32,525 nucleotides of DNA, taken from positions 1-32,525 of the forward strand of contig JANWXU010000035.1 in assembly GCA_025057395.1 (NCBI GenBank), written 5' to 3'. Shown here in pieces: positions 6,017 to 32,116 of this stretch. A program made the translations under genes and the position numbers. The notes beneath the pieces are model-generated. The model saw only the letters and a list, made by a program, of their open reading frames with translations, did no database searches and was not told where the DNA came from. The number at the start of each line of letters is the position of its first letter. Position 1 is the stretch's first letter. This DNA is from Bacteroidia bacterium. GTDB lineage: Bacteria > Bacteroidota > Bacteroidia > J057 > JANWXU01.

Positions 6017-9000
6017 TTAAGGGGTAAATATAATTGAAGGGGACCACGAAGAAAACTTACCTAATTCGCAAATTTTTCTTACTTGCGCCTCATAGGTTCT
6101 CCCCACCTGTAAACCAGAAGTTAACCAGGGGGAAGAAGTATTAATATATATCCAATTATTAGTTCCGTAAAGGCGATACCTGAGCATAACTTCTCCCTCA
6201 CCTGGTAAATCTACTTGCCAATGTAAGGCTGCATTTTCATAGCGTAAGCGAGAGGGCGTAAAACATTCACTATTTAGTGTAATTATTTTCTCACTCATTT
6301 CTCCTATAATACTTCCACCAGCACAAAGTGGAATTAGGCGCAGGATATAAGTACTTCCACCCTGCAAGTTAGTTAAAGTAAAAGAAGGTTGCGTAAGTAA
6401 AATTGTGTCTTGAACATTTCTTCCCTGCCTTTGCACAAGCAGCCAATAGAAGCTATGAAGACTATCCTGTCGCCATCGACTTTCTACTTGAACGCTGCTG
6501 ATTTGTATATTCCAATCTTGAACAGCTAAGCAAGGTATAGTTTGAACCCTAAGAGTAGCTTTCTCTTTTGATTCCTGGTTAGAAGTACAAATAGTTTGCA
6601 CACTAGCCTTGTAAGTTTGGTTAGGTAATAAGCCATTAAGCATCAAAACTGTATCTTCAGTGTAATAGGTAACAATAGTAGACAAGAATTCTAAACTAAC
6701 TCGATAGCCTTTAGCACCCTCTACTGAAGACCATTGCAAATAAAGAGGAGTTGTATGAATACCATTTGCTGAGCGCCACTCTAACTGCCTAGGAGCCGAA
6801 CAAGAATAGGCAACAACATTAATACTTTTTTCTGCAATGCAATTTCGACTATCTGCTACCCTCAATAAATATTGCCCTGGCAGCAGAGGTCCTATTAAAG
6901 GTTCCGTTTGCCAACCCTGGGGTTCAATTTGATAACGATAGGGAGGAAAGCCGCCCCTAACCATTACCCTTAACCATGCAGCTTCTTCAGCATTAGGAAA
7001 ATACTGAAGCTGGGTTTGCAATTCTAAAAGGGGAATAACCTCCAAGACCAAAGGGACCACAGGTGAGAACCCACATTCTTTATTTTGTGCAGCAAGGTAG
7101 AAAGTAGTAGTTTGGGTGATAATCGGAGTTGTAAAAACAGGCAATGAATAAGTTCCTTCTAAATTCCACTTTGCTAAAAGCTGGGCTTGAGTAGGCTCAG
7201 CATACAAAAATACACTATCACCCACTCCATTTTCTAGGAGCAACGTAAAAGTAAGCCTACCGCCCCCACAGCGAGTACTGCCCTCAGCCTTTAGGGTCGG
7301 GAGCTGTACAAAAGTGGCAACTACAGAAGCAGGTACTGCTGATGTGCAGCCCGTAGCCTTGTCTACACTCCAAACATGATATTCCTTTTCTCGCTCCATT
7401 TGTAAAACAGATAACTGATAGGGCGGCAAAGGTTCCGAAATTGCCAATGGAGGTAATTCGATACTTTGATTTTTTTCATAAAGTAGGTACTTAAAATTAG
7501 ACGTAGCTAAAGAAAAATTAGGCGTAAAAGTAATAACCCCTGGTGGAGCCCCACAAGTTCGAATGGAAGTCACGCTAGGGGGAGCGGGAAGGGGATGTAC
7601 TTGAGTTTGCAATCGAATAGGGGAAGTAGTACAACCCTCTGGACTACGTCCCTGAACTATATAACTAGATAACGGTTGGAAAAGCGAAAAAATAAAGGGA
7701 GACGTTCTTTTCCATTGTAATAAAATACCTGCTGTATCGCTTAGCATTACAGAATAACTGGGATTGGCTAATACTGTAAAAGTTATAGGCCCTATACCAC
7801 AACGTTCTAAAATAGTTTTTTCTACTCGTATTGGCTCTGCCTGGATCACCCTTAACGAATAAAAAGTGGTTTCAGAAGTGCAACCACTTTGAACAGCTAT
7901 TACTGCATATTTACCACTATTTTCAACCCCTGCATTAGGAATAATAAGAGGATTAATATAACTAATTTTGCCTTCTGGTGTTTTCCAAAATATTTGGGCT
8001 TGACTAGATGTAAAAGCCTGTAAGTTTATATCTTTGCCATTACACAAAATTGTGTCTCCAATTACCCAAGGAGGTGAAGGAAGAGCCCGAACTAAAATAT
8101 CGACACTTTTCTTCTCAGTGCGACATTGGTTATAAATTCCTTGAGCTACATATTTTCCACTTCGAGAAGGAGAAGAATTAGGAAATTCAATAATTCTACC
8201 CATGGCACTGAAATTTTGTGGACCTTCCCAAAAAACAATTACGTCACTAATGCTTTGAGCAGTAAGAATCAAATTTTGCCCACTACAAATAGGAGTATTA
8301 CTACTTAAAGAAAGAGGGAGAAAATAACTTTTAAAACTTGCAACCCGTTCCGAACGGCAGCCCTCTTGCTCCACTATTAAACGAATAGAATGAGTACCCT
8401 CTGTTTCTACTTGCCACCCTTCCAATGGGTTAGGCGTTGCTCCTATATGCATCGAATGAGTGCAATTATCGCAAATAACATGAAAAATTGTTTTTTCATT
8501 TAAGGGAGCATTGCCTGTATAGGTCAAAAAGAAAGGTGCTCCTACACAAACTGAATCAGATAGCAAAAAATCCGCAGTAGGAGTAGGAAGAACTTCTATA
8601 GAAACTGGAATATTAGCAACACAACCTTGGTTTTCTGCCCTAAGAACTACCTGAGTAATTCCTGGTCTCTGCCAAGATATGAAGAAAGGTCCTGCAGTAG
8701 TGAAGGGATAAGGAGTTGCTTGACAACCCTCGCAAAGCCAATTATAATTAGTTACATTACTACCAACTTCTGGAACGGCTTCCACAGTTAATAAAGAACC
8801 TGTACAAACTTTCCTGGCGGAAGTAAGCAACTTTACTTTAGGAGTATCAATAATAGAAATGGAAAAAAGAGTATCACGGGCACAAGTGCTTTCTATAACC
8901 TTCAATTCAATAGTAACGGGGGTAGGACTAAAATTGAAAGCAACTCTATGGGGGCCTGGTCCTTGGGCACTTGTAGGAATAGCGTTTTGACCAAAATACC

Positions 9001-11497
9001 AAAGAACCTGTGTGTTATTGTTTCTTGGTCCCAAGTACTCTAAAGATATAGGTTGGGCAGTGCAATAGGGTGGGGAACTAATTCGCAAAGGAAGCCTCGA
9101 AGGGGGAGCAATAACTTTCAAGTTACGGGTGTAGAGATTGCTTGAGCATCCGTCTTGAATAGCAATTAGTTCAATTGTATAATTTCCTGCAGCACTGAAC
9201 CTAACGGGTGGAGGAACAGCCTCTTCACTCTGAGCAGGATTACCACCTGGAAAGCGCCAAAAGTAGATAGTTCCGGGTTGGACAGAGGAGGTAAGAGTGA
9301 AATTGGCAGCAGCGTAGGTACATATAGAATCGGGACCACTAAATTGCGCTGATGGTTTAGGCAATATTTTAACTGTTAGAGAAACTTGAACAGCAGTACA
9401 AGGAGGCAAAGGAGTAGCAATAAGTTGAGTGGTTACAACTCCAGGAGCATTCCACTTATTAATAATAGGACCAGCACCACTTGCGCTGGTTAGTTCGGCA
9501 TTTCCCGAAAAATTCCATGTATATATCACCCCAGGCTCAGGATTAGTTATTGAAAATACAACCGCTTGTCCTACACAAGCTTCAGAAGTGTTTACAATAA
9601 CATTAGGTACCGCTGTACGCCTAACATTAATAAGAATAGGAGCAAAATTAGAAATAGAGCAACGTGCAGCAGCAGGGAAATCACGCAAAATAACCGATGT
9701 TATTTGTAAGGTAGCGCTTTGCGATAAAGCAGGAATAGGGAAACTAAATTCTCCATTACCTGCTCCTAGCAAGGGGGACTGAGGTTGACCGTCTAAAGTA
9801 TAATTGATTTGCCAACGATAAGATTGATTTTGACAGCTCACCCCAGAAATACGAAAAGGCAAGCGAAAGGGCGCCCCAGCACACGGCAAAGAGTCAATTG
9901 GAAGAGGCTCTATAGATACTGTTTCAAAAACTTGTACTCTGTGGATAACACAAAACTTGGTTGCAGAATCACAAAACTCACGCACGCCTGCCATTTGACT
10001 AATAATTTGTTTTTCTCCGCACGTAGGAAAAGCTACCTCTAAATAGGGCACCGAAGTAGGGGGCGTTGGCAAAACGCCTTCTACCAACCAAGAAAATCTA
10101 TCTACTTCGAAAAGTGATCGAGCTCGAAAAATAAGAGTTTCCCCTTTACAGGCATATCTAGGCCCTTGAATTTGAAAAGCTGCGTCTACTATACTAGCAG
10201 CCCCGGCATATCCATAGGAATCTATATCTGCATTCCCATATACACTAGCAATAAAACCAGTGCCTGCAGAACGTATAGTTGAGTTACCGGGTGGAATAGG
10301 GGAACGGGCATGTACAAAATTATCATTACCAATTACTGGTAGCCATTGTAGAGGTCCACAAGTGCAAGTAATATTACTTTCATTACCCCGGGCAGTAACA
10401 ATACTTGTAAAATGAGTCCAGGGGGCACCTAAATTCATTCCACTGATAGTAACTTCTTTAATAGCAAGTTCATCGACAGGCGGAAGTAAAATAAAAAAAG
10501 GGTCTGTATTCAGGTCTGTACTTTGTCCTTTATTGAAGTGACCGCAAAGAATAGGTTTATTAGATTTTACAGCTATGCCATTATTACCTGATGGGACTTC
10601 AAAGGTGTAAGTTTGCCCACATTGAAGAACAATAGGGGAATTATTACCAATTATTACTCGAGTATCGTTAGCGGCGGCTAATATTTTGCCAATATCTCCA
10701 ATTTGGCGTGCTGCAAAGGGAGAAAAGACAAATTGTTGACCCCAAAAGCTAATAGGAGGCATTTGCTCTACTAAGTGGTCACGAGCACCTGTGCCTCCTA
10801 AATTTGTCCAAACATGACCCGCAAATACAGCAAAGGGAGCAGCAGCACAACCTAGAGCCCGCACGCGGGTTCCCGATAAATCACCCCCTTCAGAACGTAG
10901 GCGTAATAATTCACCTGCTTGCAAAGTTACAGTATAGGTATTTCCAGCCTGCCAGTTATTACAAAGAGGTGCTGTGGGAGTAATTTCAAGAACCGTATTG
11001 TTATACGGTGCCACTATCATAAACTGTTGATTAGCTATGCCATTAGGGGTAGGGTTATTTTGCGTTTCTCCATGAGTTAAAATGTAATAATCAATGCCAA
11101 GAGTAGAAATAGGATAAATAATAGCAGCGTCGCTTGAATTATCGGCTTTGTTGAGCGCAAAAACTGCAATGCTATCTTGGGCAACAATACGTATAGCTTT
11201 TTTTTCAATTTGTCCACAACTGCTTATGTGAGCTAGGTTATTAGGCAAAGTTATAGAGGTAGTAGTATTGGCAGCCAAAGTAAAATTTTGGGACCAACCC
11301 ATGCCCGGTATACTCACTGTACCCGAAGTATTTACAGCAGCACTTAGATGTATAGATAAGCTTACATTTCGGTTGGTATTGTGCATAAAACCTAGCCAAA
11401 ACTCCTTACCCTTTGTAGAAATTGCTTGCGCCCAGAGGGAAGAGCAAGAAAGAAAGAAAGAAAGAAAAAAATGAAGTGTAAAGGATTTAAAAGACAT
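6017..11497 (-). CDS. Large secreted IgGFc-binding-like surface protein with Ig/PKD-like and fibronectin III modules
   Basis: 1826 residues. A signal peptide ends in SLWA before QA (residues 23-25). The mature N-terminus, about residues 27-440, has the pattern of the bacterial IgGFc-binding N-terminal domain: STKGKEFWLGFMHN, later QFMIVAPYNNTVLEITP, AGELLRLRS and DHLVEQMPP. Residues about 445-1560 are a series of beta-sandwich modules of 80-100 residues with paired cysteines (PKD/Ig-like). About 1563-1826 are three fibronectin III-like modules (for example LQWSSVEGAKGYRVSLEF). No recognisable type A or type B T9SS C-terminal domain is present; the protein stops inside the last fibronectin-like strand. 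A surface or extracellular adhesin is the likely role; antibody binding should not be assumed from the domain name. The signal-peptide codons contain a four-base tandem repeat. Confidence 0.85.
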   Translation of the reverse strand: MSFKSFTLHFFLSFFLSCSSLWAQAISTKGKEFWLGFMHNTNRNVSLSIHLSAAVNTSGTVSIPGMGWSQNFTLAANTTTSITLPNNLAHISSCGQIEKKAIRIVAQDSIAVFALNKADNSSDAAIIYPISTLGIDYYILTHGETQNNPTPNGIANQQFMIVAPYNNTVLEITPTAPLCNNWQAGNTYTVTLQAGELLRLRSEGGDLSGTRVRALGCAAAPFAVFAGHVWTNLGGTGARDHLVEQMPPISFWGQQFVFSPFAARQIGDIGKILAAANDTRVIIGNNSPIVLQCGQTYTFEVPSGNNGIAVKSNKPILCGHFNKGQSTDLNTDPFFILLPPVDELAIKEVTISGMNLGAPWTHFTSIVTARGNESNITCTCGPLQWLPVIGNDNFVHARSPIPPGNSTIRSAGTGFIASVYGNADIDSYGYAGAASIVDAAFQIQGPRYACKGETLIFRARSLFEVDRFSWLVEGVLPTPPTSVPYLEVAFPTCGEKQIISQMAGVREFCDSATKFCVIHRVQVFETVSIEPLPIDSLPCAGAPFRLPFRISGVSCQNQSYRWQINYTLDGQPQSPLLGAGNGEFSFPIPALSQSATLQITSVILRDFPAAARCSISNFAPILINVRRTAVPNVIVNTSEACVGQAVVFSITNPEPGVIYTWNFSGNAELTSASGAGPIINKWNAPGVVTTQLIATPLPPCTAVQVSLTVKILPKPSAQFSGPDSICTYAAANFTLTSSVQPGTIYFWRFPGGNPAQSEEAVPPPVRFSAAGNYTIELIAIQDGCSSNLYTRNLKVIAPPSRLPLRISSPPYCTAQPISLEYLGPRNNNTQVLWYFGQNAIPTSAQGPGPHRVAFNFSPTPVTIELKVIESTCARDTLFSISIIDTPKVKLLTSARKVCTGSLLTVEAVPEVGSNVTNYNWLCEGCQATPYPFTTAGPFFISWQRPGITQVVLRAENQGCVANIPVSIEVLPTPTADFLLSDSVCVGAPFFLTYTGNAPLNEKTIFHVICDNCTHSMHIGATPNPLEGWQVETEGTHSIRLIVEQEGCRSERVASFKSYFLPLSLSSNTPICSGQNLILTAQSISDVIVFWEGPQNFSAMGRIIEFPNSSPSRSGKYVAQGIYNQCRTEKKSVDILVRALPSPPWVIGDTILCNGKDINLQAFTSSQAQIFWKTPEGKISYINPLIIPNAGVENSGKYAVIAVQSGCTSETTFYSLRVIQAEPIRVEKTILERCGIGPITFTVLANPSYSVMLSDTAGILLQWKRTSPFIFSLFQPLSSYIVQGRSPEGCTTSPIRLQTQVHPLPAPPSVTSIRTCGAPPGVITFTPNFSLATSNFKYLLYEKNQSIELPPLAISEPLPPYQLSVLQMEREKEYHVWSVDKATGCTSAVPASVVATFVQLPTLKAEGSTRCGGGRLTFTLLLENGVGDSVFLYAEPTQAQLLAKWNLEGTYSLPVFTTPIITQTTTFYLAAQNKECGFSPVVPLVLEVIPLLELQTQLQYFPNAEEAAWLRVMVRGGFPPYRYQIEPQGWQTEPLIGPLLPGQYLLRVADSRNCIAEKSINVVAYSCSAPRQLEWRSANGIHTTPLYLQWSSVEGAKGYRVSLEFLSTIVTYYTEDTVLMLNGLLPNQTYKASVQTICTSNQESKEKATLRVQTIPCLAVQDWNIQISSVQVESRWRQDSLHSFYWLLVQRQGRNVQDTILLTQPSFTLTNLQGGSTYILRLIPLCAGGSIIGEMSEKIITLNSECFTPSRLRYENAALHWQVDLPGEGEVMLRYRLYGTNNWIYINTSSPWLTSGLQVGRTYEAQVRKICELGKFSSWSPSIIFTP
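11446..11464 (-). repeat. Tetranucleotide tandem repeat in signal-peptide codons of the large adhesin
   Basis: On the + strand four consecutive AAAG units are preceded by AAG, giving 19 bases, and followed by a run of seven A (11465-11471). Read in the gene's direction this is repeated TTTC/CTTT that encodes the hydrophobic core FFLSFFLS at about codons 10-17. Adding or losing one unit shifts the frame within the first 20 codons and would switch the 5.5-kb gene off, the usual architecture of a slipped-strand phase-variable gene. Confidence 0.7.
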
Positions 11498-18392: not shown

Positions 18393-19865
18393 TTAATGAA
18401 TAACAAAAGGCATAGTATAAGTCTGAAAAGATGTGTGCTCTCTTAGTTGTACAAAATAAAATCCTTGGGGTAAGGGTGGTAAAAAAATAGTAGTAGTCAA
18501 ATTTTCAGTACAAACTTGCAATGGAACAAATAATTGACCATAGGAATTAAACAAAAGGATCTGACTATTTGAAAGATCTTTGCCAGTCAGGTGAATTATA
18601 TCGGTTGCGGGATTAGGATAAAGCACTAAAGAAGAAACACTAGGAGCACCTGTGGCTATCTCTAGTGGATCATTATCTAATAAATTAACAGTAAACTTAT
18701 TATAAAAACCTAGCTGTGCATTAGGACTTGTAGAAGTAAGAAGTACACTAAACTGCATTTTAGGAGGGTCAGGAAATAAATTATTAAGAATGGGTATCTT
18801 AATTTGTTTAAGTGTATCCCCAGGTAAAAAAATCAAATTTCCTCGCACAGGTAAATAATTTTGATTTTCTAGGGCAGTACCCTCAACTGTTCGATAGTTT
18901 ACTCTAATATCCTCAAACCAAGGATAAGATAGACGCACTTTTAAATCCAATGTATTCTCAAAATTTCCTGTTACTTCTAAAATCGTAGTATCCGCTAAAC
19001 AACGGGGGTCTAAAGGAGGACAATTTACTTGAAATTGTACATTAGGCTTAAAATCATCATCAATAATATGCACTCTAACTTGAGAAGGATACCCTAAGAT
19101 GTAGCCCTCTGAAACTCGAGTAAGGTAGCAATCGAAAAATAGAGTATCTTCATACAAAATGTTATCCAAAATAGGAATTTCTATTTTAAGCAAACTATCT
19201 TGAGAAGAAAAAGAAAAGGTAGTATCTAAGGGAATGTAATTTTTGAAGGGAATAGCAGTGCCTGGCCTTGTTTCGAGCGAAATAGTACCGGAGTTTCTAA
19301 GTTGCTGGGCTTGTAATGTAAGAATTACCTTTTTGCTATTTTCCAGAGTAGAAATATGCGGATAAGTGAATGTCCAAGCGGGTAAGTCATTATCTTGAAT
19401 AACAACATTAATTTTATCAATATTACCAATTTTAAGATTGTGAGTAGAGTTGATTGCTACATAAAAAATTTCTTGATTCTCAATTAACGCATCATCTACT
19501 ATTTTTACTACAATTTCTTTTATAGAATCCCCAGGCATAAATGTAAGAGAGTCAGTTAATAAAATAAAGTCCTGGAAGGATAAACACGTCGGAGTGATAT
19601 TTTGCGCTTTTAAGGTAACAGTAGCCGAAGTAGAAGCAAACGCCTTATCTAAGGTAACGGAAATTCGCAAAATACCAATGCCTTCATTAACCACAATCTG
19701 ACTTTCTACAAAAGAAATAGCGGGTATAGAGCCAGCATCAAAACTATTGCTTTTTGTTACCAGGGGAGGAAAAGTTAATAAAAAGAAAAATAGCAATAAA
19801 CTTAAGTTTCGCAGTTTAGAAATATAAAAACGCTCTAAATTGAGCGTTAGGTAAATAAATTTCAT
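18393..19865 (-). CDS. Secreted Calx-beta protein with T9SS type A sorting domain
   Basis: I start at the ATG at 19865 (490 residues). The longer frame begins with TTG at 19940 and runs through a terminator hairpin, so it is unlikely. A hydrophobic signal segment SLLLFFFLLTFPPLV follows an unusually long basic n-region (about 20 residues). Three Calx-beta-like modules of about 110 residues follow, each with an NEG-like start, a FxPGDxxKxIxIPIxxD strand and an acidic D-D/N end (for example MPGDSIKEIVVKIVDD). The last 85 residues have LVLYPNPATDIIHL and a terminal beta pattern with GFYFVQL, the type A T9SS C-terminal domain. Expected outcome: export by T9SS and anchoring or release at the surface. 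The ligand is unknown. Confidence 0.85.
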   Translation of the reverse strand: MKFIYLTLNLERFYISKLRNLSLLLFFFLLTFPPLVTKSNSFDAGSIPAISFVESQIVVNEGIGILRISVTLDKAFASTSATVTLKAQNITPTCLSFQDFILLTDSLTFMPGDSIKEIVVKIVDDALIENQEIFYVAINSTHNLKIGNIDKINVVIQDNDLPAWTFTYPHISTLENSKKVILTLQAQQLRNSGTISLETRPGTAIPFKNYIPLDTTFSFSSQDSLLKIEIPILDNILYEDTLFFDCYLTRVSEGYILGYPSQVRVHIIDDDFKPNVQFQVNCPPLDPRCLADTTILEVTGNFENTLDLKVRLSYPWFEDIRVNYRTVEGTALENQNYLPVRGNLIFLPGDTLKQIKIPILNNLFPDPPKMQFSVLLTSTSPNAQLGFYNKFTVNLLDNDPLEIATGAPSVSSLVLYPNPATDIIHLTGKDLSNSQILLFNSYGQLFVPLQVCTENLTTTIFLPPLPQGFYFVQLREHTSFQTYTMPFVIH

Positions 19866-19872
19866 AATCAAT

Positions 19873-19939
19873 AAAAATGACCCAATTGCATACAAATTTA
19901 ATTTTTTTCTTTGAAAATTTACACGCTGCAATTGGGTCA
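19873..19939 (-). terminator. Rho-independent terminator after the BNR/sortilin-like gene
   Basis: In the minus direction a perfect 13-bp stem (TGACCCAATTGCA at 19939-19927 on the minus strand, paired with TGCAATTGGGTCA at 19890-19878) encloses a 36-base AT-rich loop and is followed at once by five U (19877-19873). It starts 19 bases past the stop codon of the gene at 19958-22876. The loop contains TAAATTTG (19900-19893, minus strand), which matches the -7 promoter consensus and could start the next gene, whose ATG is at 19865; the -33 element is poor. Confidence 0.65.
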
Positions 19940-19957
19940 AATTTATAATTACCTATT

Positions 19958-22876
19958 TTATTCTATTATAAGTTTGGTCGTTTTTATAGTCAATTTTGCT
20001 CCCTTATAAAAGGAATATTTCAATACATAAGTACCTTTAGCAAGAGTAGAAAAATCTAAAATTTCTCGATGTAAGCCAGCAGGTAGATAAGAATAAGAAT
20101 AAGCTTTGAGTATTTTTCCATCGAGGCTATAGATTTCCAAGTTTACATCAGAAGGAGTATCTAAAATAAACTCAACAGTTGCTGTTTGTTGAGCAGGATT
20201 AGGATAAATGCATATATAGGAATCCTTTTGCAGGGGCGTGGGATTAAAATTACTTGTGGTTCGATTCCCCTGAGTTAAACGACTTTCAAAAACGCCCCTA
20301 CCAAAAGTGGCTATGTAAATTTTAGGATCTTTAGCAGCCTCTAAGTAGTTAACGTTTTCTAAACAACGGCTACGAGGGTCATTATTCTCATAGCGCTCAC
20401 ATCGATACTTATAGTCCCATTGTTTATAAAAAATATCAAAAACAGGAACTCTTTCCATATCACCCCTATTAGCACTTAACCATTCAATATCGTCGTTATC
20501 CTTACCTAGTTGGGTAGTAGAGATATGATAAAGGCCATATTCAGTGCCTACTAGCAAAAGCGTAGTATCAGCAGGGGTAGCAGGCTTAGGGTTAGGATGA
20601 AATAGCGCACTATAGATAGGCATAAATGGCATACTACCATGGATAGGAGAAAACGTAGGTTTTTGTCCTGTTCGAGCATCAAAGCTAACATAAATACGGT
20701 AGTTTTTAGAAAAATCAACTTCGTCGAATAAATCATATCCCCCATATGTAACTACTAAAGTTTCGGGGTCGGCAGGGTTCACAGTAAGGCTTGTTATCCA
20801 TTTTCTAGGAGTATTAGGAGGAGTTATGTCTTCCACCTTAAATTTACTTCCTGCAGAAGTATCGGGATTATGTGCTTGGGTTATTCTAAATATTTTTCCT
20901 TTAGTAGTACCTGCAAAAACAGTATGGGTAGTATCCCCTGAAACAGTAATAGCTGAGAAATAACTGTTAGGATCTATTTTGTCACGTGTAATAGCTGTCC
21001 ACGTAGGAGGCGGTAAGGAGTCTGACCCAAAGGGATTAAAAGGATTTTTGACAAGCCATATTCGCTGCGAAGTGCAATAAAATAAGTATTGAGGATTGAG
21101 TACAACGCTATTGCGTGATACACGATTACCCGTAGTTTTTACATTCAGCACCTCATCTAGTACAAAAGCCGTAATAGGATAAGGATTATCTGTAGGATCC
21201 GGAACCTGAGTATTAGGTTTAAGAATATTATCATTTCGAAATTCATATTTCGGGTTATTTTCAGGAAAGCCAAAAAAGCGCTCAAAATTTTCTCCATCAT
21301 CCAAAGAGCGTTGGAGAATTGCACCAGGTAAAGCAGCTACTATATTGGAAGGATTGAAAATAGAAGACCTTACCCTCCCTCTTTGGGTACGAAGAATAGG
21401 TCGGTACTTTTGGTCATACACATGCTGCCGAAAACGCTGCAAAAGTCCAGTATTTTGAGTAGAAACCAATATTTCGTCTCTCAAATTAGCTGCTACACTA
21501 ATTGCCGGAGTAGTATTATAGTAACCAGTTGCTAATTGAAATGTTTTTCCTCCATCAGTTGTCCTTATAATTTCATTATCTGAGCTGAAATAAATGATAT
21601 TAGGATTAGAAGGGTGAATAGCGGCATTATGCAAGTTCGCGGGCACATAGTCTTCAAAGCGGGGTAAAGTACGAGAAGAGGTAAAAGAAGCCCATCCTCT
21701 GGCAGGGGAATAGTCTAATAGCTGCTGCCCTCCCATCCAAATGTGATGCGGGTCTTCAGGATCTACTAGTAATAAAACACTATACACTCCTCTACCTCGT
21801 CCAGCTCTAGTAGCTAAAGGAGCAAACGACAAATTAGGAGGAACCGTGCCTATTGCCGTTGAACGGGGAGCAATTTGTTGCCAGGTATTAGCAGCGTCTT
21901 CCGATTTCCAAACGCCCGCTAAAAAGCCATTTAAATTGACTTCTAAGATATATACTATGTTTCTATTACTAGGAGCCACTGCTACCTCCATTCTTCTTTT
22001 AGGTACATTACTAAATACGTCAGCTGTATTCCGAGGTAGTAGTATATCCCCTATAACTTTTGTAAAAGTATTACCATTATCGTCAGAAACAAACACATTA
22101 TTATGAGTAGCTACATACACCCGCCCACCATTACCAAACTCAATATCCATAATAGGGGCATTTCGTAAAGAATCAACAGAACTACGTAGAGTAGGAATGG
22201 CAGCATTATAATTATCTACAGGGCGAGAAACAGTCCGAAGCCTATCATCACTATAAAAAATTCCTCGGTGTGTGCCAATGAAAACACGTCCATTGGGTGC
22301 TACCGCTACTTTTTGAATGGAGATAAAGGGATTACGCGTATCAAAAGATGTATTAGGATAAACGAACTTGTCACTCCAAGTGGCATTAATGTTGCTAAAA
22401 GTCTTACCCCCATCTTCAGACTTAAATACCCCCTGACCCGGCAATCCTACATATCCTAAGTACCCTTCCTGATAAGTATTCAAATCAGCTAAAGGCGGAA
22501 TAAAAAGACTAGGAGCATCAGTATTATAATTAAAAACCATTTCACCAGTACCTACATAGATAATATTTTCATTATTAGGGTCTATAGCTATTGAAGAAAC
22601 AGATAAACATCGATTAATATTAGGATTATTTGTAACCTTATTAAAACCGACAACAGGCTGCCAACGAAAACCTCCGTCTGTAGATTCCCACAAGCCCCCC
22701 CCTATAGCACCAGCATATAGTTTCCCACTTTTTGTAATAGCTAAAGCACGAGTACGCCCCCCAAAGTTATCTGGACCAATATTTCGCCATGCATAGTCAA
22801 AAGGCTGAGAGAAGAGCAAAAATGGAAACAAAATAGCGCTTATTATTAAAGCAAAATTCTTTGTGAGCCCAAGCAT
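19958..22876 (-). CDS. Secreted BNR/sortilin (VPS10)-like beta-propeller protein with T9SS type A sorting domain
   Basis: 972 residues. Signal peptide with hydrophobic core, ending LLFS before Gln24. The mature start carries WRNIGPDNFGGRTRALAI and GAIGGGLWESTDGG, the pattern of the large Bacteroidota family annotated as glycosyl hydrolase/VPS10 or 'exo-alpha-sialidase-like'. Asp-box elements (S-x-D-x-G-x-x-W or similar: KSEDGGKTF, VSDDNGNTF, RTTDGGKTF, KSEDAANTW) recur through residues about 60-500, which indicates beta-propeller blades. The C-terminal 85 residues with ICIYPNPAQQTATVEF and LAKGTYVLKYSF are a type A T9SS signal. No catalytic function can be assigned; sialidase activity should not be assumed. 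A strong hairpin terminator follows the stop. Confidence 0.88.
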   Translation of the reverse strand: MLGLTKNFALIISAILFPFLLFSQPFDYAWRNIGPDNFGGRTRALAITKSGKLYAGAIGGGLWESTDGGFRWQPVVGFNKVTNNPNINRCLSVSSIAIDPNNENIIYVGTGEMVFNYNTDAPSLFIPPLADLNTYQEGYLGYVGLPGQGVFKSEDGGKTFSNINATWSDKFVYPNTSFDTRNPFISIQKVAVAPNGRVFIGTHRGIFYSDDRLRTVSRPVDNYNAAIPTLRSSVDSLRNAPIMDIEFGNGGRVYVATHNNVFVSDDNGNTFTKVIGDILLPRNTADVFSNVPKRRMEVAVAPSNRNIVYILEVNLNGFLAGVWKSEDAANTWQQIAPRSTAIGTVPPNLSFAPLATRAGRGRGVYSVLLLVDPEDPHHIWMGGQQLLDYSPARGWASFTSSRTLPRFEDYVPANLHNAAIHPSNPNIIYFSSDNEIIRTTDGGKTFQLATGYYNTTPAISVAANLRDEILVSTQNTGLLQRFRQHVYDQKYRPILRTQRGRVRSSIFNPSNIVAALPGAILQRSLDDGENFERFFGFPENNPKYEFRNDNILKPNTQVPDPTDNPYPITAFVLDEVLNVKTTGNRVSRNSVVLNPQYLFYCTSQRIWLVKNPFNPFGSDSLPPPTWTAITRDKIDPNSYFSAITVSGDTTHTVFAGTTKGKIFRITQAHNPDTSAGSKFKVEDITPPNTPRKWITSLTVNPADPETLVVTYGGYDLFDEVDFSKNYRIYVSFDARTGQKPTFSPIHGSMPFMPIYSALFHPNPKPATPADTTLLLVGTEYGLYHISTTQLGKDNDDIEWLSANRGDMERVPVFDIFYKQWDYKYRCERYENNDPRSRCLENVNYLEAAKDPKIYIATFGRGVFESRLTQGNRTTSNFNPTPLQKDSYICIYPNPAQQTATVEFILDTPSDVNLEIYSLDGKILKAYSYSYLPAGLHREILDFSTLAKGTYVLKYSFYKGAKLTIKTTKLIIE

Positions 22877-22977: not shown

Positions 22978-25900
22978 TTAAAAGTCTAGCCTTTGTATGA
23001 ATCGGTTAATTTCAAGAGAAAAATTTATTCTTTGCCCTAACGCATCCCAAGAATCAGGAAAAGTATTAGGATAAAAGGATCCTAGAATAGGATAATTAAT
23101 ACTAAAAAATCCTTTACCAAAAGAAAAACTAATTCCAGCGGCATAGGCAGTTCTTACCTCGTTTTTGCCTATTCTAGGCATTGCACCAATATCTAGAAAA
23201 CCATGAACAAAATCTAATAATTTAACAGGAGCCTGGATAGTTAAATTAGCAGATACTAACCAATCATCTGTATAGGGTTCAAGCTCAAGAATAATACCAT
23301 CTTCATAAGTCCAGCTACGAAAGCCTCCCATATCTGCAACTAGTTGTCGGCTTAAAAAGCCTGTTGTTTCTTGCTTTCTATCTAACAAAATACTTTCTCC
23401 CAAAGGGTCACGGCTACCACTGAAGCGATAGGCTAAATCAAAAGGAACTTCTTGGTTTAATAGCCACTTGCCTGCAAAGCTACGTAGAGAAATAAAAGCA
23501 TGCTGAGTGTAACGATAGCTTATAAAAGGCGCAATACTTATCCTTACTGCTTGGGCATTATGGTAACCTAATTCAAAATCCCATCCATATTCCCATAACC
23601 TTTTATCCATTGAATAGTGCCAATCGATAGCAATAAAGTAAGGGCGAAAATCTTGCTCCACTCGCCATTCCGCCCCTACATACCGAGCTAATTGATGAGA
23701 ACGGAGAGTAAGATAATGAATTGGAGCCCTGCGCCAATTGGGCTGTAAGCGATAAAAAGGAGAAGCAAAGACTTTTTCAGAAGATAATATCTTTTGAAAA
23801 GGTTGAAAATAAAAAGTAATTGAATTTTTGAGGCGAAAAAGATCCGAGAATTGGGCAACTCTTGTTTTCCACTCAATTTTTCTAAATATCTCGTTAGGAA
23901 ATACCCGTAAAGTAAAGCCTGCACTGCCTACAAGTCTCTTACTACCTAAACTATACATTGGCATTAGATGGAACTCAAAATGCTGCCTAGGATAGGGCTG
24001 AAAATAAAAAAGTCCTCCTGCCATAAATCCATCGTTAGCATTGGCTCCTAAAGCAGGTATCCAAAATATAGGTTTTTGATACATATTTTCTAGGCGGTAT
24101 AAAAACTTTAGCTCTATCTCCGGAAAAGCAGGCAAAAAGCTTCTATTGTAATACAAATTATTATGAACATTTCTTTCGGGCAGCACCTGCGTAGGATTTA
24201 TAACTACAATATGCCATCTTTCAGCATCTTCAAGTTCGCAAACAACGGTAATTTTATTGAGAAAAGGCTCCGTTTTAAGGGTTTGTAAAATCTGATGACT
24301 TTTATCTTGAATAGCTAAAATAGCAGGCAACAAAAAACCACTTTTATTCTCAATATGAATGTAGAGCTTACCATTTTCGTTTTCAACATTTTCAATTTTG
24401 AAATCTACAGTTTCTTTAGTATTAACAAGTCCTTGAAAAAACCATGTTAAGTCTTTTTGACTTACCTTTTCGAAAACAGCTTGCATATCTTGTGGGTAGG
24501 GATGTTTGAACTGCCACTGCGCAAAATAGGCTTGCATGCACTTATCAAAAAGAGCTTGTCCTAAATAATTTTCTAGGTAATTGAGAGCAAAAACAGATTT
24601 GGTATAAACAATTAACCCATAATTAATGCGAGTATACCAATCGGCTGGCAAGCTAATAGGCTGAACTCTATTAGTAGACTCGACAAACTTATACGAAAAT
24701 TTAGCTAGCGTAGCATTTCCAAATAAGTCGCCGCCTAAAAAGAATCGCCTTCTGGGCAATTGCAGGTCATTTTGAAATTTTTTCTTCAAAGATAAATCAG
24801 GAGAGTAGCTTGTAATGCCCTCCAAAATATCCATTATCCGATTTTCATAGTAAGAATTAAGGCCCTCATCTAGCCAGGGATATAAGCGCTCATTAGAAGC
24901 CAAAACACCATAAAACCAATTATGGCCTAGTTCATGCACAATTACCCTTCGAAGTGTAGAAGAATTATTTATAGGTCCTATTACCGTAATCATAGGGTAT
25001 TCCATTCCACTACCAGCTCCCAAGGCTCCACTTACTGCTGTTGCTTGCGGATAAGGATATTCCCCTACTAGCTTTGAGTACCAATAAATTGCTTCTTTGA
25101 TGTACTTGGTTGCCTCCTGCCAGTGCTTCTTTTCTGAAGCTCTATATAGAGCCTTAACTTGGATAATTCTTTTAGAATAGGGTAAAAGTAAAGTATCTCT
25201 ATCTTCGATGTATTCCTTATCACAAAACCAAGCAAAATCATGCACACTATCGGCAACAAAATGATAAATTATATTTTTAGGATTTTTAGAGTCGGCAAAT
25301 TCTCTTTGCAGCACTCCTGTAGCAGCAATCTTGTATTCTTTAGGTAAACTTATTTGTACGTCAAAACGTCCCCATTCACTATAAAATTCACCCTGGTCTA
25401 AATAAGGCATGGGGTGCCATCCTTGGGCGTCTAATACTACAGGTTTAGGATACCATTGGGTAATTTGATATTGATTATCAGTATGCCCCATTCGTGAAAA
25501 TGTATATGGAATTTTCACACGAAAAGGAGTTTTTATCTTAATGCTTTTACCGGAATTCAAAGGAAAGGGTAATTTCAAAAGCAAAACTTCTAAAATCTTT
25601 TTTTGTTTAGCTACGTAAAAGGCACTGCCTTCTATCGTATTCAAAATAGGATGCTCCACGGGTAAATAGCTCCACTCAATGGGTTGTCCTTCAATACTAA
25701 AGTTCAAACTATCTATTCCTCCCCTTTCCTCATCTCGAGCATAATAAAAGCTAAGATTATTATTTTCTACTTGATGGCGGGTAAAAGGAGTATTCCTGCT
25801 TTGGTAAGCATTAGGCCATAAATGAAGGTAAATATAAGTAAGAGCACTATCGGCATTATTGTAGTAAATACACTCCCACTCTCCTTTTAGAAAGTGGCTT

Positions 25901-26055
25901 TGATCATCTAGCGTAACTTTTATGTTATATTCTACACGTTGTTGAAAATACGGAGCATCACTAAGATATTGAGCCTGTATTTTGTGTATAAAGAATACTA
26001 ATAAAAGTAATTGTATTACCTTCATTCTAAAAATGAGGCCGTTTATAAATTTCAT
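22978..26055 (-). CDS. M1-family metallopeptidase with apparent C-terminal outer-membrane beta-barrel
   Basis: From the ATG at 26055 the product is 1025 residues; a start at 26025 gives an even shorter signal peptide, and one at 26082 would overlap proC by 23 bases. The signal peptide ends HKIQA before Gln. Residues about 40-560 are an M1 aminopeptidase: exopeptidase-type GAGSGMEYP, then the zinc site HELGHNWFYG (His374, His378) and the third ligand Glu397 in DEGLN, 18 residues after the second His as in the family. From about residue 660 to the end the sequence is no longer peptidase-like. It shows alternating hydrophobic/aromatic strands and ends in Phe, like an outer-membrane barrel. It is 4 bases from the end of proC. 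The fusion suggests an outer-membrane-anchored peptidase. Confidence 0.88.
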   Translation of the reverse strand: MKFINGLIFRMKVIQLLLLVFFIHKIQAQYLSDAPYFQQRVEYNIKVTLDDQSHFLKGEWECIYYNNADSALTYIYLHLWPNAYQSRNTPFTRHQVENNNLSFYYARDEERGGIDSLNFSIEGQPIEWSYLPVEHPILNTIEGSAFYVAKQKKILEVLLLKLPFPLNSGKSIKIKTPFRVKIPYTFSRMGHTDNQYQITQWYPKPVVLDAQGWHPMPYLDQGEFYSEWGRFDVQISLPKEYKIAATGVLQREFADSKNPKNIIYHFVADSVHDFAWFCDKEYIEDRDTLLLPYSKRIIQVKALYRASEKKHWQEATKYIKEAIYWYSKLVGEYPYPQATAVSGALGAGSGMEYPMITVIGPINNSSTLRRVIVHELGHNWFYGVLASNERLYPWLDEGLNSYYENRIMDILEGITSYSPDLSLKKKFQNDLQLPRRRFFLGGDLFGNATLAKFSYKFVESTNRVQPISLPADWYTRINYGLIVYTKSVFALNYLENYLGQALFDKCMQAYFAQWQFKHPYPQDMQAVFEKVSQKDLTWFFQGLVNTKETVDFKIENVENENGKLYIHIENKSGFLLPAILAIQDKSHQILQTLKTEPFLNKITVVCELEDAERWHIVVINPTQVLPERNVHNNLYYNRSFLPAFPEIELKFLYRLENMYQKPIFWIPALGANANDGFMAGGLFYFQPYPRQHFEFHLMPMYSLGSKRLVGSAGFTLRVFPNEIFRKIEWKTRVAQFSDLFRLKNSITFYFQPFQKILSSEKVFASPFYRLQPNWRRAPIHYLTLRSHQLARYVGAEWRVEQDFRPYFIAIDWHYSMDKRLWEYGWDFELGYHNAQAVRISIAPFISYRYTQHAFISLRSFAGKWLLNQEVPFDLAYRFSGSRDPLGESILLDRKQETTGFLSRQLVADMGGFRSWTYEDGIILELEPYTDDWLVSANLTIQAPVKLLDFVHGFLDIGAMPRIGKNEVRTAYAAGISFSFGKGFFSINYPILGSFYPNTFPDSWDALGQRINFSLEINRFIQRLDF

Positions 26056-26059
26056 AAAG

Positions 26060-26851
26060 TTATTTTTTATGTTGAATTCCATCGATAGCGTGGAAAGACG
26101 ATAAAATTCCTTTTATGAGAGCAGAGCTAAACCCCTGATGTTCCATTTCATTAAGGCCAGCAATAGTGCATCCTTGAGGGGTTGTTACTTTGTCAATTTC
26201 ACTCTCAGGGTGTGAATCTTGGTTTAAAATTAGAGCGGCTGCCCCTCTTACGGTTTGAGCAGCTATTTTTAGAGCAGTTTGAGAATCAAAACCAATTTGA
26301 ATTCCTCCCTGCATTGAGGCACGAATATAGCGAAGGGCAAACGCTAATCCACAAGCACCTAGTACAGTAGCTGCATCCATCAAGTGCTCCTCTATAAACA
26401 CACTTTGCCCTAACTTATTAAAAAGTGTTAAAATAGCTTGTTTTTGTTGTTCGCTAAGGTTAGCAGTACTAATGCATGTCATCGACTCTCTTTGAGAAAT
26501 AGCAGTATTAGGCATAGCACGCGCAATATACACCTGTGGACCCAAATGCAATTTCAATTCTTGCAAAGAAAAACCTGTTACTAAAGAAATTAATAGCTGG
26601 TGCTCAATAAAAGGACGAATTTCCTCTAAAACTTTAACTACTTGATGAGGCTTTACTGCAAGCATAACATAATTAGCAGCACCAATAAATGCCGTATTAG
26701 AATCAGAAATTTGTATACCTAAGCTTTTAAGATACGTAATCTTTTGTGGATTACGCCGCGTAACAGTAATGTTATAATTCGGTTCTGCTTCTTTCAAGCC
26801 TTTAGCAATAGCACAACCTAAATTTCCTCCACCAATAATTAAGATATTCAT
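26060..26851 (-). CDS. proC: Pyrroline-5-carboxylate reductase
   Basis: NAD(P)H-dependent reduction of 1-pyrroline-5-carboxylate to proline, the last step of proline synthesis, in the cytosol. 263 residues, normal length. The Rossmann loop is GGGNLGCAIA (7-16). VMLAVKPHQV marks the second part of the nucleotide fold and ARAMPNTA the central motif. The C-terminal helical domain has ASMQGGIQIGF, the catalytic-region pattern TVRGAAALIL and DKVTTPQGCTIAGLNEME. The gene lies 43 bases after ppx and 4 bases before the peptidase, all in one direction. Confidence 0.96.
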   Translation of the reverse strand: MNILIIGGGNLGCAIAKGLKEAEPNYNITVTRRNPQKITYLKSLGIQISDSNTAFIGAANYVMLAVKPHQVVKVLEEIRPFIEHQLLISLVTGFSLQELKLHLGPQVYIARAMPNTAISQRESMTCISTANLSEQQKQAILTLFNKLGQSVFIEEHLMDAATVLGACGLAFALRYIRASMQGGIQIGFDSQTALKIAAQTVRGAAALILNQDSHPESEIDKVTTPQGCTIAGLNEMEHQGFSSALIKGILSSFHAIDGIQHKK

Positions 26852-28723: not shown

Positions 28724-31606
28724 ATGCAAACATTAAGCTTTACTACTAAATTTACCTTTAGTTATTTAATTGGTACTCTTTTGCTAGTACTTACTTCAAT
28801 TATAGGAGTAATTGAGCAAAATAGTATCGAAGAAAATACCCAAAAATCCAATACTTACTGGAAAGCTCTAGATAACCAAATTTCCCGGCTTCATCGTACT
28901 GCTACTACTTTGCAGCAAACAGCAAGCGTACTAAGAACTGCACCAGACCAAACCACCTACTTAGCTACCCTTAGTAAATATGAAGGACTTAAAAAACAAA
29001 TGAATAAACAAATGGGTAGGCTACAAGAAATGTATTCCCCCACAGCTTTTGCAGAGTCTATGAATTTACTCGAAGACCTAAATCGTTACTATCAGTCTTA
29101 TGTGACCTCTCTGCAACATTATGAGGAATATATTCAATCTAAAGTACCTGCTTTTGCTGATAAAATTATGGTAAATAGCCTCTCTCCCTCTTTTAGCCTA
29201 ACTCTACAAACTTTAGAAATTATACGAACTCATGAAATAAACCAAACATTCAATAGTATCTTAATTGCAAAAAAAAATCTAGACTTAAATAAAGTTTTAC
29301 TTGCTTTTTGCTTAATTGGAATATTCCTAAGCTTAATTGTATATCCTAGCTATCTATTACTTAAAGTTCGTTCAAAAATAGAAAAACTTACCTTTAAACT
29401 ACACTCTCTATTTCGAGCCGAAAACGCTACCTCCCCAAACTATAAAAACGAACTCGAGCGTTTAGAAAAAGAAATTGATATTTTACAGAATGAAATCCAA
29501 AATTTAGATTTTTCTTTGCAGCAATTGGCAGAAAAAAATTGTCTTCCTCAGCAAGCTTCAACTTCTTCTTCCTCTTCTTGGATTCACTTTCGATTACGAA
29601 CATTAGAGCAAAAAATTTTAGTTTTAAGCGAGGAAGACCAAATTAAAAAATGGCAAATAAGTACGTCTAACCACTTCCATGAATTGATTAGTAGTCAAGC
29701 CTTAAGCTCAGACTTAGCAGAAATACTCCTAAAAGAAATTATTAACTACTTTGAGTTCATTATTGGGGCTATCTATGTAGCAGCTCTCACTGAGCGAGAG
29801 GAAATAGTACTAAGATTACATTACAGCTATGCGTTACATTCAGAAGTTCCTGAAAAAAGGACTATTAAACCAGGAGAAGGACTACTAGGGCAGGCCATAA
29901 TTGAAAAGAAAATTATTTATATTACTCAAATTCCGGTCGAGTTTTTTAGTATCCAATCTGGTTTAGGGGAGGCCCCTCCCCAAGCATTGCTAATAGTTCC
30001 TATTATCTTTGGAGATCAAATAGTAGGAGCCCTAGAATTAGCTTCCTTCCAAAATTTATCCCCTGCAATTTTTACATTTTTTGAAAATTTTAGCCATCAA
30101 TTTGGAGTATACTTTTATCACTATCTTTTCCTAAAAAATAATACCTCTTTAGCTATTGCCGCTGGAGAAAAGCAATATCTTTCAAGTTTAAGTTCCTCTA
30201 CTCCGATTGCAGAAAAAAAAAATGATCATTCTAATGAGCTTGAAAAAAAATGTCAACAGCTGCAAGAACAGAATCGACTTTTAGAAACTCAACTCCAAGA
30301 AAAGGAAGCTCAAGCTATCATCTGTAAAAAGGAGCTCGAACATTGTCAAGAAGAAAAAAAGATGGAGCAACAAAAGCACCTACAGGAGTATAATAAATTA
30401 AAGCATAAAAATGCAGAAATTATTTTGCAATTAGCTAGTCTAGAGCAAGAACTTGAAAACACTAAAGAAGAAAAAAAAGCATCTACCCAACTTAAAAACG
30501 AAATTGAACATCTGTACTCAGAGAATCAAAAACTAAGCCAAGCTCTTATACAAACTGAACAACAACTCAACCAGTTGCAAGACGAAAAAGAAAAAGTTAA
30601 ACTCCAAATAGCAGCATTAGAAAATATCTTCCAAAAGTATGAAGAATTGCAATTATCCTATTTTCAATATGATGCTTTGGCTTCTGAAATAGAACTTCCG
30701 CCTTTAAAGAAGAATAATCTTATTGATTCAAACTCGCTTATTGAAAGGGTCAAAGAATTAATAGAAACTTACTTTTCTAATGAATTAACCAATAATGATC
30801 CGGTATTACTTTACTTTTGGAAAAAAGGTGATAAAAACATCCAATATTTTCTACTATTTCTCATGCCCAATTCTTCCTCTCCTTTTCTTTGGCAAGGGCT
30901 TTTGATTCTTCTTCCGCCAACCGTAGGATCAATTGAGCTTCTTACATACTCCTTCTTGAACTACTTGCAGGAGCTAGTAAGGACTAAAAATAAAAATAGT
31001 GATTCCGCAAATATATTATTGGTACCTAGCAATATTTGCCAACAATTAAAACTTAACATTGAGCAAGCTGAAGATAATTTAGCTAAAATTTCGTTTTTTA
31101 TTTCTCCTCCTGCCTCCGAACCTAAAGAAGCTGCTCAACTACAACAAATTATACTAGAAGCGAACTTGCCATCATATTCAATCACCTTAGCTCCTGAAAT
31201 ATTGAAACCTTACGTAAGTGCAATAACTCTTGAAAATAATATATACCAAAATTTACTTAAAGAAGCAGTAGGTTTCTTAGAAATGAATAAAGTAGGATTT
31301 ATTGAAGATTGTAATAAAAATGTACTAAATATGCTTGAACTTCCTCAAAAGGAAGAAATTATGGGCAAACATCTTACTAGTATAATGCCCCCTCAACATG
31401 AAGTAATTTTTGATACTATTATTGAAAAAATCAATAAACAAGAATATCTATTTCAAAAGCTTACACTTGTTAAAGCTAGTTGCCAGATAGTGGAAGTGGA
31501 AGCTTACTTTATACTAAAAAATTTATCTTCTAATTATAATAGTTCTAGTCAAGACTTTAAGCTACTTGTTTTCCTGCTAAATAAAGCTCCGCTTACGATA
31601 AATTAA
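28724..31606 (+). CDS. Membrane sensor: two TM helices, GAF domain, long coiled coil, C-terminal PAS-like domain, no output domain
   Basis: I start at the ATG at 28724 (960 residues); a TTG four codons upstream is the alternative. TM1 at about 9-30 and TM2 at about 190-213 bracket a helical periplasmic region of about 160 residues, like a four-helix-bundle sensor. A coiled segment (about 215-270) leads to a GAF domain (about 320-465: GEGLLGQAII, LLIVPIIFGDQIVGALEL). A coiled coil (about 500-645) of Glu/Lys/Gln heptads follows, then a region with no match. A PAS-like domain (about 850-950) contains VGFIEDCNKNVLNMLEL and MGKHLTSIMPP. There is no histidine-kinase, cyclase, EAL, HAMP or methyl-accepting signature. 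It overlaps the SUKH gene on the other strand by 30 bases and is close to a SpoIIE phosphatase. Confidence 0.85.
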   Translation: MQTLSFTTKFTFSYLIGTLLLVLTSIIGVIEQNSIEENTQKSNTYWKALDNQISRLHRTATTLQQTASVLRTAPDQTTYLATLSKYEGLKKQMNKQMGRLQEMYSPTAFAESMNLLEDLNRYYQSYVTSLQHYEEYIQSKVPAFADKIMVNSLSPSFSLTLQTLEIIRTHEINQTFNSILIAKKNLDLNKVLLAFCLIGIFLSLIVYPSYLLLKVRSKIEKLTFKLHSLFRAENATSPNYKNELERLEKEIDILQNEIQNLDFSLQQLAEKNCLPQQASTSSSSSWIHFRLRTLEQKILVLSEEDQIKKWQISTSNHFHELISSQALSSDLAEILLKEIINYFEFIIGAIYVAALTEREEIVLRLHYSYALHSEVPEKRTIKPGEGLLGQAIIEKKIIYITQIPVEFFSIQSGLGEAPPQALLIVPIIFGDQIVGALELASFQNLSPAIFTFFENFSHQFGVYFYHYLFLKNNTSLAIAAGEKQYLSSLSSSTPIAEKKNDHSNELEKKCQQLQEQNRLLETQLQEKEAQAIICKKELEHCQEEKKMEQQKHLQEYNKLKHKNAEIILQLASLEQELENTKEEKKASTQLKNEIEHLYSENQKLSQALIQTEQQLNQLQDEKEKVKLQIAALENIFQKYEELQLSYFQYDALASEIELPPLKKNNLIDSNSLIERVKELIETYFSNELTNNDPVLLYFWKKGDKNIQYFLLFLMPNSSSPFLWQGLLILLPPTVGSIELLTYSFLNYLQELVRTKNKNSDSANILLVPSNICQQLKLNIEQAEDNLAKISFFISPPASEPKEAAQLQQIILEANLPSYSITLAPEILKPYVSAITLENNIYQNLLKEAVGFLEMNKVGFIEDCNKNVLNMLELPQKEEIMGKHLTSIMPPQHEVIFDTIIEKINKQEYLFQKLTLVKASCQIVEVEAYFILKNLSSNYNSSSQDFKLLVFLLNKAPLTIN

Positions 31607-32116
31607 ATTTAGAAATTCTTCAAAACTTTCAGCAACAAAATAAACATTGGCCTCTTTTTTAGGGTTTTGAGAATCAAATTGGAAAAAATAGATATGATAG
31701 TTATCTAAGTCCATAGCCATAATATTTCCAAAGGCATCACAAGCAATAGGTAAATACTTGTTTTTCAAAAGATTCTTATAGTAAACCCAATTATAGTATA
31801 GGTTATACTTAGGAGATTTTCTAATATTAAAAAAAGTATAAATTACAAAGCTATACAGCTTTTGAGGAAAAGGCGCAGACGAGTACACGTCACAGGCATA
31901 TTCAAGCGTAGGAAAAACTGACTTTTGTTTTAAGAAATTAATATAACTTGCAGGAAGTTTATGCGATAATAATTTTTCAAAGGCTTCCAAATTATTTTGG
32001 GGTTCCTCTTTTTTATTTTGTGGAATTGCGGCTATAGCTCCTTTTTTAATATGCTCCAGCCATGTAAACAAACTTTTAGCCCACTTTCCAAAAGTCATTA
32101 CAGTGGTAATAAACAT
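31577..32116 (-). CDS. SUKH superfamily (SMI1/KNR4-like) protein
   Basis: 179 residues from the ATG at 32116 (an ATG at 32098 is also possible). No signal peptide, so cytosolic. Family features from about residue 40: an early helix LEAFEKLLSHKLPASYINFL (the LPxxYxxFL motif), a strand KYLPIACDAFGNIMAMDL (the xPIxxDxxGN motif), IYFFQFDS, and a closing FVAESFEEFLNLI. SUKH proteins include many immunity proteins for polymorphic toxins, but also regulators; no toxin gene is visible next to it. It lies 25 bases after the SpoIIE gene and in the same direction, so the two may be co-transcribed. The 3' end overlaps the sensor gene by 30 bases. Confidence 0.8.
   Translation of the reverse strand: MFITTVMTFGKWAKSLFTWLEHIKKGAIAAIPQNKKEEPQNNLEAFEKLLSHKLPASYINFLKQKSVFPTLEYACDVYSSAPFPQKLYSFVIYTFFNIRKSPKYNLYYNWVYYKNLLKNKYLPIACDAFGNIMAMDLDNYHIYFFQFDSQNPKKEANVYFVAESFEEFLNLIYRKRSFI

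Follow-up and report, generated by a model that had tools for sequence, protein, structure and literature searches.

Omp85 proteins build the outer membranes of bacteria, mitochondria and chloroplasts, and to our knowledge few enzyme fusions to their barrels are on record. One of these is the type Vd patatin-Omp85 protein PlpD, in which an enzyme lies N-terminal to a 16-strand Omp85 barrel. The enzyme of PlpD is reported to be periplasmic, and type Vd release of the enzyme to the surface or medium is disputed for PlpD itself (PMC11116518). Heinz and Lithgow (2014), in their section on subfamilies, describe ten bacterial Omp85 subfamilies, some of them without POTRA domains, whose N-termini include patatin, PF00149 and WD40 domains. 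The 'Metallo' subfamily carries a non-POTRA enzyme domain (PF00149) on its barrel, and M1 is not named in that section (PMC4104836). BepA, of peptidase family M48, is a zinc enzyme that works in the periplasm, at the outer membrane; it can mature LptD as well as degrade it at the BAM complex, and so acts as both protease and assembly helper (PMC8423444).

The protein described here is encoded in a window of 32,525 nucleotides (the whole stretch of DNA that was analysed). It joins a zinc peptidase of family M1 to a predicted C-terminal barrel, which we call type A; a second kind of M1-linked barrel, found elsewhere in the same genome, is called type B. PlpD has a patatin lipase and one POTRA domain and is a dimer, whereas the window protein has an M1 domain, no POTRA that we could find, and a barrel without the VRGF/Y motif. 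The 'Metallo' enzyme domain likewise differs from M1. With TamA, TamL and BamA the predicted barrel shares its fold over nearly the whole domain, and type B also shares LRGY and F.D.G motifs; however, the window protein has an enzyme instead of POTRA domains, and type A is missed by PF01103. Domains I-III (by fold) and the zinc motifs are those of ERAP1 and aminopeptidase N, but a barrel is predicted at the place of the helical domain IV of ERAP1 and GMEY replaces GxMEN. BepA possibly has a similar role, although it belongs to another peptidase family, has a TPR domain and lacks a barrel. Enzyme-Omp85 fusions are not new as a class; the M1 version is new as far as our literature searches show. 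No M1-barrel fusion appeared in titles or abstract openings among the matches listed from the open-licence literature. The accessible text of the TamL paper (PMC12045153) names no M1 protein, nor does that of the F. johnsoniae BAM paper, where the word 'peptidase' occurs 0 times in the main text (PMC12611786).

Table 1. Features of the fusion gene in the window (residues are counted from the first ATG).
Feature	Position	Strand	Basis or remark
M1 peptidase-barrel fusion, 1034 aa from first ATG	22978..26082	(-)	in-frame ATGs at 26082, 26055, 26025
Signal peptide, residues up to 37	25972..26082	(-)	cleavage expected before Gln38
M1 domain I, about residues 46-300	25183..25947	(-)	predicted model, fold alignment
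M1 catalytic domain II, about residues 301-560	24403..25182	(-)	Pfam, predicted model, fold alignment
GMEYP, residues 359-363	24994..25008	(-)	variant of GxMEN exopeptidase motif
HELGH zinc motif, residues 383-387	24922..24936	(-)	sequence, alignment
Third zinc ligand E406	24865..24867	(-)	sequence, alignment
Y493, probable catalytic tyrosine	24604..24606	(-)	alignment
All-beta domain, residues 561-660	24103..24402	(-)	at place of ERAP1 domain III
Predicted 16-strand barrel, Omp85-like fold, residues 669-1023	23014..24078	(-)	AlphaFold2, fold searches
Long loop between strands 11 and 12, residues 877-940	23263..23454	(-)	conserved D892, R902, Q913, G919
Tail with short helix, residues 1024-1034	22981..23013	(-)	AlphaFold2

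The first-pass annotation had started the gene at 26055. This is indeed an in-frame ATG (codon 10), but the open reading frame extends to a first ATG at 26082, and a further one lies at codon 20 (26025). Since proC ends at 26060, we judge a start at 26055 or 26025 more plausible than one at 26082. Gln38, the expected mature N-terminus, is present in 107 of the 112 alignment rows that we call active (window included), the remaining 5 being gapped there. This agrees with the Q-rule of Bacteroidetes (PMC10653852). Pfam and NCBIfam scans of the window protein found no C-terminal T9SS sorting domain, and the possibility that it is T9SS cargo was rejected on that ground.

Peptidase_M1 was the sole Pfam match in the window protein (residues 372-550, E 5.3e-16, 59.3 bits against a cut-off of 27.7), and the NCBIfam scan returned M1 families only, all far under their cut-offs. 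The HExxH-x18-E motif and the tyrosine are complete (H383, E384, H387, E406 and Y493), as is GMEYP, so that the complete M1 motifs claimed for the first half were confirmed. Y493 is probably the catalytic tyrosine, as in LTA4H and ERAP1, and the GMEYP position presumably has the exopeptidase role of GxMEN. The zinc motif, Y493 and GMEY are present in 112/112 active rows, 80 of which were selected through such motifs. By its sequence, the window protein is a member of peptidase family M1. In the predicted model, the fold of domains I-II matched F3, ERAP1 and LTA4H at Z 28-32, and residues 48-669 aligned with ERAP1 59-640 (6q4r, 3qnf) at Z about 31; several other fold-alignment rows run on to about residue 785. 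By the ERAP1 alignment, the barrel would stand about where ERAP1 has domain IV. The model places a beta-sandwich domain before the barrel, not at the C-terminus. A HEAT-like or Ig-like C-terminus, or no barrel at all, had been named beforehand as outcomes that would speak against a barrel enzyme; none of these was seen in the AlphaFold2 models. A HEAT/ERAP1-C ending was rejected, a barrel being predicted there.

The barrel and its fold class come from structure prediction. AlphaFold2, run on the full-length sequence together with 28 relatives, reached pLDDT 81.7 and pTM 0.80 and placed 16 strands between residues 669 and 1023. The last 380 residues, modelled with 46 relatives, again gave 16 strands if one bulged strand is counted once (pLDDT 88.1, pTM 0.85). 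The barrel was folded alone because the full-length fold search gave only M1-type matches among the matches listed. When the barrel was searched against the PDB with Foldseek, the best 50 of 785 matches were all from Omp85 proteins or complexes, led by TamA (8us3, E 2.8e-8), with modest TM-scores of 0.37-0.48 by query. VIA-align takes the Foldseek hits as its input and is therefore not independent of that search; the best 50 of its 684 matches with Z of 2 or more were again of the Omp85 kind. The best was 7vku_A (Z 17.3, 278 aligned, 4.5 Å), and BamA 8xnb_A scored Z 16.6 (274 aligned, 4.4 Å); overall, rmsd was 4.0-6.0 Å and identity 6-12%. The matches covered TamA, BamA, FhaC, SAM and TOC. Where the entry title gives a complex, as with SAM, TOC and part of the BAM entries, we read the matched chain as the Omp85 subunit from its length and residue range. 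Judged from the VIA-align ranges only, nearly the whole barrel aligned with that of BamA in the same chain direction.

The predicted strands also alternate between hydrophobic and polar residues. With strand ends set by hand from both AlphaFold2 models, the contrast was 1.15 in the barrel versus 0.55 ± 0.10 in within-strand shuffles (0/5000 as high); strands of the M1 part, taken as a control, gave 1.03 versus 0.72 ± 0.13 (43/5000 as high). These results agree with the first-pass annotation, which had read the strand-rich second part as a barrel, and an M1 enzyme on an outer-membrane barrel is thereby supported by prediction. The aromatic character that it had noted (F, W and Y) held up as a small excess only, 18.4% in residues 661-1034 versus 15.1% in 45-660. 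The argument from the terminal Phe fails across the active relatives. The last residue in 109 active rows (window included) is F in 24, Y in 4, L in 24 and another residue in 57, and in the window protein about 10 residues, with a short helix, follow the last predicted strand.

BamA-like barrels have a periplasmic N-terminus. As the M1 part takes the POTRA place, the fold suggests that the enzyme lies in the periplasm. The catalytic domain had previously been left as either periplasmic or at the surface; the BamA-direction alignment points to the periplasmic side, and the surface side is not favoured. With this topology, 5 of the 8 modelled surface loops have 2-6 residues, two have 15 and 18, and one has 64. 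This last and longest loop, between strands 11 and 12, stands at what we take to be the place of Omp85 L6. The short loops, the long loop at that place and the lack of a Pfam TonB plug lend no support to the proposed role in peptide uptake.

We predict from these models that the barrel is Omp85-like by fold only. It was not filed in the Omp85 family because PF01103, POTRA and VRGF/Y are all absent. PF01103 did not match the window protein, nor any of 47 barrels, at E up to 1; a search of its own genome matched four other genes. The Pfam scan found no POTRA domain, and residues 48-669 align with M1 domains instead. VRGF/Y was found in 0/111 active and 0/24 inactive rows of type A (0/135). The type A loop has other conserved residues: D892 (111/112 active, 20/24 inactive), R902 (111/112 and 19/24) and Q913 (110/112 and 24/24). 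D964 is present in 92/112 active and 24/24 inactive rows, and G966 in 83/112 and 22/24; we take this DxG in strand 13 as a candidate for the inner-wall acidic motif of Omp85. Profile comparison gave 82.8% for the type A against the type B barrel in global mode, while the local alignment covered 44 columns only (70.5%). Type B reached 91.9% with a TamA/TamL-like Omp85 profile of 12 rows, and type A 12.2%. With a BamA profile the values were 0.4% for type A, no better than unrelated controls, and 0.2% for type B; FadL and OMP_b-brl_3 control profiles gave at most 0.7%. The low values of type A with TamA/TamL and BamA indicate that its sequence tie to Omp85 runs through type B. PDB sequence-profile searches with the barrel alignments gave nothing usable.

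Type B comes from one of three further M1 genes of the same genome, on contigs C200, C244 and C95. The C200 gene (L038:4025-7267) encodes 1080 aa with a C-terminal region of the barrel type, GGGLNLRGY and a terminal Phe. The C244 gene (774 aa) is without such a region, and the C95 open frame of 581 aa runs off its contig. C-terminal regions of type B were found in 36 of 60 related genomes, a count that takes in the window's own genome. All 30 type B proteins that were fetched have [LMV]RG[YF], mostly as GGGLNLRGY; R321, G322, D378, G380 and the terminal Phe are invariant, and the F.D.G motif is present. The terminal Phe is thus a constant feature of type B, not of the window's gene, and C200 is the better textbook case of the first-pass idea. 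The zinc motif is present in 27 of the 30 type B fragments. One fragment (L084) is cut, and two proteins of one genus code (g4; L080 from G013 and L089 from G003) lack the motif, a loss that is separate from the one in type A.

A scan of genome contigs with the single window protein found no relative. The type A barrel profile found related barrels in at least 52 of the 296 genomes sampled across the phylum, the window's own genome among them, and in at least 28 of 140 genera; these are lower bounds, since in most genomes no more than 6 candidates were scored. The M1-barrel fusion is common to many Bacteroidota, and the family models that were searched detect its M1 part only. A further set of 80 named loci are the best 80 from a scan with A1 and were found through active-site patterns, so that HExxH in 80/80 of them holds by construction.

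Two family codes (f48 and f28, by our guess Flavobacteriaceae and Weeksellaceae) hold 34 of the 52 genomes with a type A barrel. HExxH...E was not found in frame in 33 of these 34 genes, the 34th (G311) being cut by the contig start. The remaining 18 comprise 17 with the zinc motif, two of which (G065 and G073, of another class) matched the barrel weakly, and one (G094:C45:59417-60577) with an in-frame stop; other members of its family code, f49, have the zinc motif. We aligned 24 inactive proteins, which have other residues at H383, E384, H387, Y493 and GMEY, with E at 406 in one row. They occupy one side of a branch with SH-aLRT 100, in a tree that was built from 66 of the 136 rows, with 10 named loci out of the 80 among them, kept the zinc-site columns, came from a short search and has some long branches. 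L013 was omitted from the full alignment by length, and L234, L244 and L245 lie outside it. A full type B barrel was not found in the 20 inactive-clade genomes searched; three gave weak partial matches, one of them within the type A gene itself.

The two groups differ in which half is better conserved. M1 identity exceeded barrel identity in 5879 of 5886 active pairs (means 47.5% vs 27.3%), and in only 14 of 276 inactive pairs (36.1% vs 44.2%). At a barrel identity of 30-40%, mean M1 identity was 50.5% in 1038 active pairs and 25.2% in 102 inactive pairs. These pairs are non-independent, and active-site patterns had served to select the majority of the active rows; L030, L031 and L035, which contig ends truncate, were omitted. 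Rows fetched by the barrel alone avoid this selection, and their direction agrees: M1 (residues 300-660) was more alike in 94 of 105 active and 76 of 528 inactive pairs. In these sequences, the barrel, rather than the enzyme, is the better conserved half of the inactive clade. R867, Q913 and D964 are kept there in 24/24, and F or Y is terminal in 22/24. The fusion itself, the complete zinc motifs, the signal peptide, the conservation across the family and the lineages without the zinc motif can all be read from the sequences. Since lineages with and without the zinc site share one kind of barrel, they amount to a natural experiment, which makes the roles of enzyme and barrel separable genetically.

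Taken together, we think it probable that the window protein is a Sec-exported M1 enzyme on an Omp85-like barrel, embedded in the outer membrane and facing the periplasm. After export by Sec, the C-terminal 16-strand barrel would sit in the outer membrane and hold the zinc aminopeptidase at its periplasmic face, in the position that the POTRA domains of BamA and TamA occupy. There the M1 domain would bind the N-termini of peptides or unfolded proteins and, in the window's lineage, trim them. As the zinc motif was lost in two protein types and the barrel was kept, holding or handling at the membrane, and not only cleavage, is suggested. Most likely the protein is an enzyme, or a protein that handles substrates, embedded in the outer membrane and facing the periplasm; we infer its location, topology, activity and substrate class from the fold and the family. 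None of the neighbours identified points to a substrate.

Two narrower versions share this location, so that confidence in them overlaps with that in the periplasm-facing enzyme. The protein might be an assembly or quality-control factor: an insertase or helper of Omp85-like kind, in which a domain derived from M1 replaced POTRA as the module that handles substrates and sorts or trims stalled outer-membrane proteins, much as BepA deals with LptD. We regard this as possible, though on the unlikely side. The Omp85 proteins studied before assemble or translocate proteins (PMC11116518), and with BepA a metallopeptidase of dual role at BAM is already known (PMC8423444); the barrel kept after loss of the zinc motif in two protein types also fits. 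However, POTRA was not found, VRGF/Y is absent in type A, and inspection by eye of the neighbour clusters that recur in at least 4 loci revealed no bam or tam gene. We would put forward, equally tentatively, that M1-barrel fusions are a POTRA-less branch of the outer-membrane assembly and quality-control machines of Bacteroidota. The peptidase would have taken over substrate handling from POTRA and become a non-catalytic binding domain at least twice, with a type A L6 signature of its own (D892, R902, Q913) replacing VRGF/Y. It is also somewhat unlikely that the barrel is a plain anchor, tethering an aminopeptidase whose task is to trim peptides that reach the periplasm. In active rows conservation is higher in the enzyme than in the barrel, with zinc motif and Y493 throughout (80 of the 112 being motif-selected), as an anchor would predict, but the inactive clade keeps R867, Q913 and D964 and conserves its barrel better. 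If the barrel were a mere tether, it should not have survived the loss of the zinc site, as it did in two protein types; this speaks for a membrane-side role of barrel and binding domain together. Highly improbable, in our view, is the type Vd idea of a self-secreting enzyme, with the M1 domain exported through its own barrel to the cell surface. An N-terminal enzyme with a C-terminal barrel is the autotransporter order, and AaaA is reportedly an aminopeptidase autotransporter (PMC3426542), but the Omp85-like fold and the long loop at the L6 place do not favour it. PlpD, the archetype, was itself found periplasmic (PMC11116518).

We also looked at the neighbourhoods. Of the 80 named loci, 24 (L137, L139, L153 and 21 more of L136-L215) have an LpxH-like gene as the immediate downstream neighbour of the type A fusion. 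BLAST with a single representative placed an LpxK-like gene upstream in 7 of 80, and 5 of these share the strand of the fusion; a looser cluster had 8. The LpxH representative stayed below the NCBIfam cut-offs for its families, and the LpxK representative exceeded that of TIGR00682. BLAST did not find LpxH or LpxK in 20 inactive-clade or 20 type B neighbourhoods, and LpxH was not among the window ORFs scanned with Pfam; a lipid A link was not used for function. In 21 of 80 named loci the fusion is preceded, on its own strand, by a gene for a ResA/TlpA-like protein. The inactive-clade flanks carry a dehydrogenase E1 and a LOG-type protein (read by eye) in 14/20 loci each, and UvrA in 12/20.

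Within the window, the next two genes downstream (18393-22876, minus strand) both have a type IX sorting domain; Pfam gave one weak Sortilin-Vps10 match in one and Calx-beta domains in the other. A protein of 1826 aa (6017-11497, minus strand) has IgGFc-binding, Ig_7, PKD and fn3 domains, with no sorting domain among its Pfam matches. At 31577-32116 (minus strand) we observed a SUKH (SMI1/KNR4) protein, a family often seen as immunity proteins.
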